From Faecalibacterium sp. An121 (GTDB taxonomy: Bacteria > Bacillota > Clostridia > Oscillospirales > Ruminococcaceae), in the NCBI RefSeq assembly GCF_002160915.1, contig NZ_NFLM01000001.1, forward strand, positions 62,001-126,000: 64,000 nucleotides of DNA, written 5' to 3'. How positions within the stretch are numbered: the first letter of the stretch is position 1; every line of letters starts with the position of its first letter. Shown one piece after another: positions 24,413-26,891 of the stretch. Position numbers and translations under genes: made by a program. Under the pieces are notes generated by a model, which was not told the DNA's origin, made no database searches, and saw nothing but the letters and a program-made list of their open reading frames with translations.

Positions 24413-25519
24413 TTGAAGATCACAAAGCACATCGCAAGACGGCTGGCGGCTCTGGCCCTGGCCGGGGTCATGACTCTGGCGGCGGCGCCGCAGGCTTTGG
24501 CGGCGGACACCATCGGCGGGGCGGATACCGCACAGGTGCCCGTCAGCCGGGAACTGGAACAGGAAAACTGCATCCAGTGGTTGCTGGACCTGTTTGGCCT
24601 GGGAGGCAGCGACAAGATCACGGTGGATTATCTGAACGTCCGGGGCCAGGGGCTGCGCCGCAACGTGCGGATGGACCTGGTGGACTGCCTGGTGGGCATC
24701 ACCTACACCGAGCTGGGTTCGATCGGCAGCTATGCTGAGATCTCGGACCGGGCCGCCGCCGAGGCATGGAAGGCCCAGGCCATTGCCATCCACTCCTATC
24801 TGGAGTACCAGAACCAGTATGGCTCCTCGGCCAACGCTCTGACCTACACGCCGGTGGACCAGATCCCTTCTGCCACCCGCCGCAAGATGGAAAACGCCAT
24901 CCGGGATGTGGCCGATCTGGTGCTGGTCTATGACAACGGCAGCGGCTGGTCGGTGTGCGACGCGGTGTTCTCCTGCAGCGCCGGCTACAACACCCAGACC
25001 GGGGTGTACGGCACCTGCTCGGCTCTGGATGCCTGGGGCACCGATGTGCCCTACCTGCAAAGCGTCGAAAGCCCCTATGAGGAGCAGTACCACAACATCC
25101 TGCGCCGGGTGATCGGCAAAGATTACCGGATGCTGGAGTACAACGACAGCCGCCACCCGGACGAGCCCTACCGGAGCGCCGACACCAGCCACAAGAGCCT
25201 GGGCGGCTTTGTGCAGTACGATACCCTGGTGGTGAATGGCCGCAGCTACCGCTACCTGAACCAGTTTGTCAGCTCCCGGTACTGCTTCGACTTCACCGCC
25301 GACCAGGACGGCACCCCGGCCATGGCGTACTATGGCTATGGCCACGGTGTGGGGATGAGCCAGTGCGGCGCAGTGGGCTTTGCCCAGGAGCGGGGGTATA
25401 ACTACCGTCAGATCCTGTCCACCTACTACACCGGCACCCGCCTGATGGACAGCAGCGACGGCAGCGTGAGCTCGGGTGGCTGGAATCTGTTCGACTGGCT
25501 GTTCGGCTGGCTGTTCTGA
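24413..25519 (+). CDS. SpoIID/LytB-domain secreted protein
   Basis: A 368-residue exported protein: signal peptide MKITKHIARRLAALALAGVMTLAAAPQALA, then a SpoIID-type domain. Family landmarks are AAAEAWKAQAIAIHSYLEYQ (the KAQAVAARTY-like helix) and YGHGVGMSQCGAVGFAQERGYNYRQILSTYYTGT near the C-terminus. SpoIID proteins are glycan-strand lytic transglycosylases of sporulation or the vegetative wall. AGGAGG (24398-24403) directly abuts the in-frame ATG 24404, so TTG 24413, at 9-base spacing, is the better start. The final codons GCTGGCTGTTC form part of the 69-bp direct repeat that brackets the following GT2 island. Confidence 0.85.
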   Translation: MKITKHIARRLAALALAGVMTLAAAPQALAADTIGGADTAQVPVSRELEQENCIQWLLDLFGLGGSDKITVDYLNVRGQGLRRNVRMDLVDCLVGITYTELGSIGSYAEISDRAAAEAWKAQAIAIHSYLEYQNQYGSSANALTYTPVDQIPSATRRKMENAIRDVADLVLVYDNGSGWSVCDAVFSCSAGYNTQTGVYGTCSALDAWGTDVPYLQSVESPYEEQYHNILRRVIGKDYRMLEYNDSRHPDEPYRSADTSHKSLGGFVQYDTLVVNGRSYRYLNQFVSSRYCFDFTADQDGTPAMAYYGYGHGVGMSQCGAVGFAQERGYNYRQILSTYYTGTRLMDSSDGSVSSGGWNLFDWLFGWLF

Positions 25520-25575
25520 ACAGACCCTCTATAGACTATAAAAAGGCCCGCCCCTGGAAGATGGGGGCGGGCTTT
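25507..25575. repeat. 69-bp direct repeat, copy 1 (flank of GT2 island)
   Basis: Covers the last codons of the SpoIID-like gene, its stop and its terminator. Matches 26823-26891 at 68 of 69 positions (one G/A difference). Repeat period 1,316 bp. Confidence 0.95.
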
Positions 25576-25599: not shown

Positions 25600-26550
25600 T
25601 TAAATACAGATAGAAATGAAGTACTGTAAAATGTATTTTAAATCGATGAATTTCTTGTTTGAGGTTAGAAGAAAATCTTTAAAGGCAAACAACGACACTT
25701 TTCGATGATTTTTGATAAGCTTTTTCCAGTTGGATGGCTTTATTTTATAGAGCTGCCAAAAGATACTGTTGTATGTTTTAAAAATAAAATAATTTGAACC
25801 AGCAATGATCTCTTTTGAAGCATTATGCGCTATAAAGTAGTCTTTTATTTGATAGGAAGTTTCAATCGTTTTTATTTTTCTTTCAAAGTCATTGCTTTTA
25901 CTTGAAGAACCAATTCGATAATAATAGTGATACATTGGCAGATTGCAGAAGTAAATATCAGGTTCTGCGAAAAAAAGCTGCAATGAAATTACATAATCCT
26001 CGTAATTTCTTAATGAGGGAAAGCGGAACGTATCAAATAATTCTCTTTTAAATAGCTTACAGCACATAGAACCCAAATCGTCTTCTGTTTGATATAAAAC
26101 ATTCAGAATACATTTTTTCCCACTTATTATACCACTTTTTGAATCAGAAAATTGGTTCTTGGAAGTGCCATCTGCAAAATCAATCGAATACGCACATCCG
26201 GTGATATCTCTCTTATATGTATTACAAAGGCTCATAAGCTTTTCACACATACGAGGATCTATCCAATCATCGCTGTCAACAAACATAATATATTCGCCTT
26301 TGCTGCGGTCAATACCGTAATTTCGTGCAATGCCCTGACCCTCGTTTCTTTTGTGGTATGCAATGACTCTTCTGTCTTTTTCTTGGTAAAAGTCGCAGAT
26401 TTTTGAACTTGAATCGGTGCTCCCATCATCTATAAGGATAATTTCTAAGTTTTTGTATGTCTGAGATAATACGGAGTCAATGCATCTATTCAGATAATTT
26501 TCCACATTGTAGACAGGGATAATGATAGAAATCATCGCATTGGTTTCCAT
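25600..26550 (-). CDS. GT2-family glycosyltransferase (AT-rich, probably acquired)
   Basis: A 316-residue inverting glycosyltransferase of the GT-A fold. MISIIIPVYNVENYLNRCIDSVLSQTYKNLEIILIDDGSTDSS (about 6-48) holds the nucleotide-sugar-binding Asp. YIMFVDSDDWIDPRM (about 88-104) holds the DxD-type metal site, and NYEDYVISLQLFF supplies a catalytic-base-like acidic motif (ED). It probably adds a sugar to a surface polysaccharide or teichoic acid. GAGGAGGCAATCC precedes the ATG. Base and codon use are strikingly AT-rich against the GC-rich neighbours, and the gene sits alone between 69-bp direct repeats, so acquisition is very likely. A MITE separates it from its promoter. Confidence 0.9.
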   Translation of the reverse strand: METNAMISIIIPVYNVENYLNRCIDSVLSQTYKNLEIILIDDGSTDSSSKICDFYQEKDRRVIAYHKRNEGQGIARNYGIDRSKGEYIMFVDSDDWIDPRMCEKLMSLCNTYKRDITGCAYSIDFADGTSKNQFSDSKSGIISGKKCILNVLYQTEDDLGSMCCKLFKRELFDTFRFPSLRNYEDYVISLQLFFAEPDIYFCNLPMYHYYYRIGSSSKSNDFERKIKTIETSYQIKDYFIAHNASKEIIAGSNYFIFKTYNSIFWQLYKIKPSNWKKLIKNHRKVSLFAFKDFLLTSNKKFIDLKYILQYFISICI

Positions 26551-26572
26551 GGATTGCCTCCTCTATGCCTAG

Positions 26573-26732
26573 GGTGTATCTGAGAAGTCAAACATGCTGA
26601 GATATTCGCCAAAAAGTGCCAGCTGCAAGGCGCATGAGCGCTGCACTCCTCCATGGAATGCAAGCGAATGCAACGCAGCAGATGGGGCTTTTTGGTAGAA
26701 TAGAACAGCGTGGGGGAGTTTTCAGATACACC
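26573..26732. mobile_element. 160-bp MITE with GGTGTATCTGA terminal inverted repeats
   Basis: Ends GGTGTATCTGA and its inverted copy TCAGATACACC, each flanked by CTAG (26569-26572 and 26733-26736), fitting a 4-bp YTAR-type target duplication as made by IS5-group transposases. No transposase is encoded. The left 73 bp match 48682-48754 (inverted) at 69 of 73 positions. Confidence 0.8.
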
Positions 26733-26771
26733 CTAGTGAACTTAAAGTATATGGCAGAAGTTGGTATAAGA

Positions 26772-26800
26772 ATTATATCAAAAAACCTATTTATTGGCAA
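26772..26800 (-). promoter_or_regulatory. GT2 gene promoter
   Basis: Reverse-strand TTGCCA (26795-26800), 17 bp, TATAAT (26772-26777). The MITE lies between it and the GT2 ATG, in the 5' leader. Confidence 0.8.
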
Positions 26801-26822: not shown

Positions 26823-26891
26823 CTGGCTGTTCTGAACAGACCCTCTATAAACTATAAAAAGGCCCGCCCCTGGAAGATGGGGGCGGGCTTT
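26823..26891. repeat. 69-bp direct repeat, copy 2 (flank of GT2 island)
   Basis: Second copy of 25507-25575, including the duplicated terminator hairpin. It now lies just downstream of hflX on the other strand. Confidence 0.95.

Follow-up and report, generated by a model that had tools for sequence, protein, structure and literature searches.

The window, a 64,000-nucleotide stretch of the genome of Faecalibacterium sp. An121, contains a 162-bp MITE in the 5' leader of a GT2 glycosyltransferase gene. We consider it likely that this MITE is mobilized by the transposase of an IS5-family element with duplication of a TA dinucleotide, and that its central part is an old module, selected on one strand and probably as RNA, which has been passed between elements with different types of ends.

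The features of the window MITE and of the GT2 locus are listed in Table 1. The MITE is bounded by perfect 12-bp inverted repeats (GGGTGTATCTGA), carries no transposase gene and stays below the limit of about 200-300 bp for such elements. A preliminary description had placed a 160-bp MITE at 26573-26732; both the sequence and an inverted-repeat search (arms 26569-26615 and 26690-26736, 47 nt, 74% complementary) support the element, but these coordinates miss the outermost base at either end. The flanks, which had been read as CTAG, indeed show these letters on both sides, but they consist of a C, the duplicated TA and the first or last base (G or C) of the element itself. Folding confirms the long hairpin that had been proposed. 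The folding energy of the element, with one flanking base per side, is -89.5 kcal/mol for the + strand and -74.1 kcal/mol for the - strand, with z-scores of -10.8 and -7.5, respectively, relative to 200 dinucleotide shuffles. The covariance model R1 (see below) gives 173.7 bits on the + strand and 79.8 bits on the - strand. No Rfam 15 model matches the window MITE at E-values up to 1.

Table 1. Coordinates of the MITE, its conserved core and the GT2 locus in the window
Feature	Position	Strand	Basis
MITE, 162 bp	26572..26733	+ (strand of the conserved core fold, antisense to GT2 mRNA)	covariance-model boundaries
Left target duplication TA	26570..26571	.	sequence and flank comparison, with empty-site logic from another copy
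Right target duplication TA	26734..26735	.	sequence and flank comparison
Left end GGGTGTATCTGAGAAGTC, 18 bp	26572..26589	+	identical to the tnp-3' end of the IS of G014 (Faecalibacterium An122)
Right end GGGTGTATCTGAAAACTC, 18 bp	26716..26733	-	identical to the tnp-5' end of the same G014 IS
Conserved structured core	26603..26705	+	as in alignment A4
Internal loop 1, 5' side C[AA]G	26626..26629	+	A4 columns 29-32
Internal loop 1, 3' side C[GCA]G	26674..26678	+	A4 columns 79-83
Internal loop 2, 5' side C[GCT]G (GCA in most members)	26639..26643	+	A4 columns 42-47
Internal loop 2, 3' side C[AA]G	26661..26664	+	A4 columns 65-68
Apical 7-bp stem GNANTNC/GNANTNC with 5-nt loop	26643..26661	+	alignments
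GT2 promoter TTGCCA (26800-26795), 17 bp, TATAAT (26777-26772), TG-extended	26772..26800	-	11/12 matches
GT2 ribosome-binding site GGAGG, intact after insertion	26557..26561	-	sequence
GT2 glycosyltransferase, 316 aa, PF00535	25600..26550	-	ORF and Pfam

The genome of An121 contains 22 matches to the MITE, six of which are full length with 90-100% identity. A DNA search of 61 genomes returned matches in eight (An121 included), all within the genus. The pattern of the terminal inverted repeats (TIRs; at most one mismatch) was searched in 31 genomes of the genus and is present in 18; the control gave no match in any of the 31. The further copies in close genomes on which the preliminary description depended are thus present. 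We gathered 103 TIR pairs and kept 71 with a length of 157-166 bp and at most one and two end mismatches; the other 32 were shorter, longer or decayed. The 71 full copies are dispersed and have unrelated flanks, as is expected of a multi-copy MITE, with a few representing the same insertion in two strains (e.g., L121 and L217). In 14 of the 71 contexts the MITE has apparently inserted in the TA of a stop codon, with the first G of the element re-forming TAG (L070, L057, L067, L079, L128, L152, L203, L233, L066, L071, L054, L061, L131, and L006).

A TA is found on both sides of 45 of the 71 full copies. The outer bases of these 45 copies read CTA/TAA (19), TTA/TAG (10), CTA/TAG (8) or otherwise (8). 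Only eight of the 45 therefore fit an identical CTAG on both sides and the duplication is a TA within a YTAR target, not the 4-bp YTAR duplication of the IS5 subgroup sensu stricto. In addition, the joined flanks of a copy in genome G012 match a co-linear empty site in G005 (90% identity), which reads TATTAGGAT (a TTAG site); the filled allele reads TATTA-element-TAGGAT. A 4-bp CTAG duplication is ruled out by this empty site together with the flanks of the 37 incompatible copies. For the window copy itself, no orthologous empty site was found among the 31 genomes of the genus (An121 included), and no match across the junction was found in the 30 other congeners searched.

The insertion sequence with the same two ends was found in congeners. 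In G014, several contigs end about 100-240 bp past GGGTGTATCTGAGAAGTC and encode the C-terminus of a transposase, and at a further contig end GGGTGTATCTGAAAACTC precedes the beginning of ORFA. The left and right 18 bp of the MITE are each identical to the respective end of this IS, including their asymmetry. A full relative in G013 is 886 bp long between its TAs (L118:1501-2386; 890 bp with both TAs) and has the termini TTAGGG...CCCTAA (TAs included). Its ORFA contains a DUF4096 domain (Pfam, 4e-27) and its ORFB a DDE_Tnp_1 domain (Pfam, 2e-18), the latter also assigned to NCBIfam IS5_3 (6e-42, 144 bits against a cut-off of 110). Since the 18-bp ends are shared with an IS that encodes an IS5-family DDE transposase, the earlier designation as an IS5-group MITE is right. 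Like other IS5-family elements and their MITEs, the window MITE is thus associated with such 18-bp ends, a DDE transposase with an N-terminal DUF4096 domain and a YTAR target, but its duplication comprises 2 bp (TA) instead of 4 bp, and its body is not a deleted IS because the G013 element (L118) has no match to the hairpin model R1. A TA-duplicating member of the IS5 family would presumably belong to the IS427-type subgroup.

The C-terminus of the transposase is encoded in six of 31 genomes of the genus (E up to 0.001). A close transposase (80-100% identity) occurs in G014, G013, G004, and G002; G017, G000, and a second locus of G013 contain only fragments with 35% identity. When nine genomes were searched with the transposase of this IS, it was not found in seven of them. 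The preliminary description had proposed a search for a full IS with the same ends and an encoded DDE transposase; such an IS was found in congeners but not in An121 itself, whose 62-contig assembly (in which a repeat may have collapsed) yielded just a 35%-identical fragment of this transposase. A different IS5-type transposase fragment is located at a contig end of this genome (L119:4822-5142). For the GGAANCTCTGANTAAAT end family, TIRs are located at contig ends in G294, G340, and G187, which suggests a long repeat, of which the assembled part (about 50-120 bp) is too short to name a transposase. Another contig end (L416:1-135) carries a related terminal repeat and then an ORF start, MKQETFTDIEYSFRKKK, which resembles the start of an IS5-type transposase.

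The hairpin is no arbitrary palindrome, since the central part of the MITE contains a conserved structured core, which the preliminary description had missed along with its distribution. Alignment A2 comprises 19 representatives of the full copies; 95.2% of its cells pair and 23 of its 56 pairs have changes on both sides. Alignment A4 comprises 31 members of the core with a median identity of 53% (range 32-93%), specifically the window copy and 30 of the 32 low-redundancy sequences chosen to represent a set of 94 oriented ones (local alignment; L161 and L266 are left out). Of its 26 pairs, 22 are changed on both sides while still paired. In comparisons with shuffled alignments, which are inflated by the kinship of the sequences and rely on structures derived from the same alignments, covariation amounts to 0.310 in A2 (0.130 shuffled, 0.031-0.055 slid) and 0.641 in A4 (0.178 shuffled, 0.122-0.175 slid), A4 having in addition 89.5% paired cells (62.4% shuffled) and 216 cells changed on both sides (75.1 shuffled), with none of 500 shuffles reaching any of the A4 measures.

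The pairing also distinguishes the two strands. In A2 there are 64 G-U cells versus 10 A-C cells, the G-U excess is found in all 19 rows and the same strand is more stable in all 19. The signal in A4 is weaker but has the same direction (46 G-U versus 16 A-C cells), with 18 rows for, six against and seven tied, and with a single column accounting for 14 of the 46 G-U cells; the + strand is more stable in 29 out of 31 members. The better-folding strand is the one set by the ends in 61 of the 71 full copies. The ten exceptions are all of the F. prausnitzii type (L121-L127, L193, L197, and L217) and have a core that aligns on the other strand.

Two internal loops keep their letters across these divergent members (31, median identity 53%). 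Loop 1 has C[AA]G on its 5' side and C[GCA]G on its 3' side, and loop 2 repeats it in inverted orientation, C[GCA]G now being 5' and C[AA]G 3'. Among the 31 A4 members, the two C[AA]G sides read CAAG or CGAG in 21 and 29, respectively; CGCAG or CGAAG occurs in 19 and CGCA-G or CGAA-G in 24. The loops are 11 aligned positions apart (G32 to C42 of A4), and 11 stacked positions correspond to about one turn of an A-form helix. The core is capped by the 7-bp stem GNANTNC/GNANTNC with a loop of mostly 5 nt. Based on the covariation, the kept loop letters and the G-U excess, we infer selection on one strand, most likely as RNA.

Two covariance models, R1 built from A2 and R2 for the core, were used to follow the element beyond the genus; their E-values are rough due to a short calibration. 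In a sample of 394 genomes from the order, R1 (E up to 0.001) has matches in 83, and in 44 of 168 genera. R2 (E up to 1e-4) was applied to samples of the class, with matches in 79 of 391 genomes and 53 of 223 genera, and of the phylum, with matches in 16 of 398 genomes and 14 of 267 genera; the latter two samples include some members of the own order. Among 30 aligned loci of the class search most show the motif; the low-scoring L335 and L348 have no clear core. The distant members are mostly about 158-164 bp long and share the centre GATNCAAGGC-N6-ACGCAG-GAATNC-loop-GNATTNC-AAG-N7-AACGCAG, yet their terminal repeats are quite different (e.g., GGGCGTGTTCACATA, GGGGTTCTCTAAAAACC, GAACTTGTTCCAATAGGGG, GGGAACCTCTGAATAAAT, TTGCTCCACCAATTAAA, and GGTATCACCGGATAATT). 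Forty further copies from seven genomes tend to have their own end type per genome and are mostly flanked by TA, and several loci at the level of the phylum have the same hairpin with yet other ends. As the same module occurs in elements with different terminal repeats, it has been handed on as the ends changed.

There are also larger forms. Three aligned copies of about 300 bp in G708 (L339, L389, and L390), with ends TACCCTCTATTGACAATG, contain two core matches on opposite strands. In several genomes a second, weaker core match is located beside the first on the other strand, and double hairpins therefore exist; such variants were also seen at L331, L344, L383, and L397. Size classes of about 265-420 bp with GGAACCTCTGAATAAAT-type ends and extra sequence inside the hairpin occur at L400, L417, L418, and L419 (G405 and G294). 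The 102-base core has no match in plasmids and one weak record in phages. The exact core pattern is present in three viral contigs of IMG/VR (L360, L361, and L362).

The fold can be compared with established bacterial MITEs. ERIC, Correia/NEMIS, and RUP belong to these, with TA ends and transcript hairpins, according to the parts of Delihas (2007) used here (PMC2229807). ERIC/IRU elements of Enterobacteria are likewise small, TA-ended, imperfectly palindromic and intergenic, with an RNA stem-loop (PMC2229807); homology is ruled out by an ERIC copy of E. coli (L379), which matches neither R1 nor R2. Correia/NEMIS elements of Neisseria are TA-ended as well, with RNase III as the proposed nuclease for their transcript hairpin, but ends and length differ, going by the published description in the same parts of that source (PMC2229807). 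For RUP of Streptococcus pneumoniae, a TA-ended MITE with a proposed IS mobilizer, these parts name IS630-Spn1 and not an IS5-family element (PMC2229807). In the parts of the sources used here, bcr1 of the Bacillus cereus group is an intergenic, MITE-like repeat of about 150-170 bp with a conserved fold (PMC3446304, PMC2267715, PMC6542083); bcr repeats occur in UTRs in B. cereus (PMC3446304), and the mobility of bcr1 is tied to a TTTAT motif and restricted to this group (PMC6542083). By this description bcr1 is set apart from the family of the window MITE, which duplicates TA and is not associated with TTTAT. Our searches of the open-licence literature returned neither a MITE of this sort nor such an RNA from Faecalibacterium, Oscillospirales, or Firmicutes, and no structured core common to MITEs with different ends across a phylum. 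A known Rfam RNA family is excluded, since the null result of Rfam 15 at the window MITE extends to the elements at 40 related loci (E up to 0.5), where other known RNAs were detected. The RNA-like core fold thus appears to be undescribed.

Several other explanations have to be weighed against a one-strand-selected module. The TA duplication alone would also suit a MITE of the IS630/Tc1 group, by analogy with RUP and IS630-Spn1, but the IS with the same two ends encodes DUF4096 and DDE proteins, and with the Pfam and NCBIfam assignment of its transposase to the IS5 family an IS630-type mobilizer is rejected, leaving this explanation highly improbable. The hairpin could further be the by-product of the inverted-repeat ends of an ordinary MITE, with its pairing kept by quasi-palindrome correction, i.e., template switching between the arms. 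The element is after all a perfect-ended, TA-duplicating MITE, and correction from arm to arm would likewise yield paired changes on both sides. However, such correction overwrites one arm with the sequence of the other, so that G-U pairs, bulges and internal loops would vanish, whereas they are kept at a median identity of 53%; nor would it be expected to produce the G-U/A-C asymmetry between the strands or to retain the loop letters while the ends change. We regard this origin of the pairing as quite unlikely.

Selection of the core as single-stranded DNA, at the replication fork or in a transposition intermediate, would account for a mobile unit and for the orientation of the MITE relative to genes. 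Among the 71 copies, 61 have both neighbors within 600 bp, and the orientations (called with a home-made gene finder seeded with known genes) are -,- in 22, +,+ in 19, -,+ in 12 and +,- in eight cases. This lack of bias (22 versus 19) is unlike what a transcript-based function predicts, and host read-through therefore fails to explain the preferred strand and is ruled out as its source. DNA also tolerates G-T pairs better than A-C pairs. On the other hand, the TA duplication and the matching IS ends fit double-strand DDE chemistry, and a strand-specific single-stranded DNA intermediate is not known for IS5-family transposition. Selection as DNA is thus unlikely, and selection as RNA is our preferred reading of the core.

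The insertion might instead matter chiefly to GT2, with the leader hairpin repressing or stabilizing its expression or with the MITE providing a new promoter. The element is indeed located between a strong promoter and the ribosome-binding site. With the GT2 promoter at 26800-26772 (TTGCCA-17-TATAAT upstream, ATG downstream), the MITE is part of the transcribed leader, as had been stated, and the distances of about 40 bp from the -10 element and 22 bp before the start codon given earlier are close to those measured (38 bp to the -10 element, which ends at 26772, and 21 nt to the ATG at 26550). Because the leader is transcribed from the - strand, its mRNA contains the sequence complementary to the core, with a hairpin of about -72 to -74 kcal/mol. 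We found no promoter-like site within the MITE on the GT2 strand, which gives no support to the suggested element-borne promoter. The suggested change in translation through accessibility of the ribosome-binding site does not follow from folding predictions either. In the predicted folds most of the site pairs with a segment farther upstream in the leader, whether the element is present or the flanks are joined, and its pairing together with that of the start codon is about the same with and without the MITE; occlusion by the insertion is thus rejected and little effect on initiation is expected. The insertion is probably nearly neutral for the initiation of GT2 translation in these predictions, and mRNA processing or stability would be a likelier target. 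As the family is also scattered beside many unrelated genes, an effect on GT2 as the main significance of the insertion seems doubtful.

The locus has a further peculiarity. A 69-bp direct repeat (99%; 25507-25575 and 26823-26891), spanning the end and the terminator of a SpoIID-like gene, encloses the MITE and the A+T-rich GT2 gene with its promoter. It looks as though a GT2 cassette of about 1.3 kb had inserted with duplication of the terminator. The cassette locus has no match across it in the 30 other congeners searched.

Taken as a mobile element with an RNA-like core, the MITE would work as follows. A two-ORF IS5-family transposase (DUF4096 and DDE) would move the non-autonomous element in trans; insertion takes place at the TA of YTAR sites with duplication of the TA, as the ends, the flanks and one empty site show. 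The element forms an imperfect hairpin of 162 nt, the central 100 nt or so of which would be the old module, conserved on one strand and most likely as RNA, and passed on while the end sequences, and presumably also the mobilizing transposases, changed. The inverted pair of loops, about one A-form turn apart, would suit a dimeric protein that binds double-stranded RNA. By analogy with other bacterial MITE transcripts, RNase III is our best guess for such a partner, and the core may bind it or a similar dimeric protein. The window copy inserted into the GT2 leader with the core strand antisense to GT2, and the GT2 transcript would carry a weaker but still very stable complementary hairpin, with promoter, ribosome-binding site and start codon intact.

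Bacterial MITEs are usually viewed as deleted IS copies with an incidental hairpin, in families that end at the genus or species group. A single core that recurs with differing ends in an order, in its class and in part of the phylum is unlike such a deletion derivative and closer to a small selfish RNA module whose transposon ends can be exchanged. A bolder reading, rather less probable than not, is that this structured RNA, conserved across Bacillota, is the real replicating unit, which would ride in minimal transposons, swap its ends so as to exploit many transposases, exist as single and double hairpins and engage a conserved dimeric host protein such as RNase III through its two-fold-symmetric pair of loops. 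If true, it would be an RNA unit with single forms of about 160 bp and head-to-head double forms of about 300 bp that contacts a host protein to its own benefit. If confirmed, this would offer a testable handle on why bacterial MITEs retain RNA folds, enrich the annotation of gut Clostridia by a new RNA family and account for a frequent, so far unannotated type of hairpin in leaders and intergenic regions.
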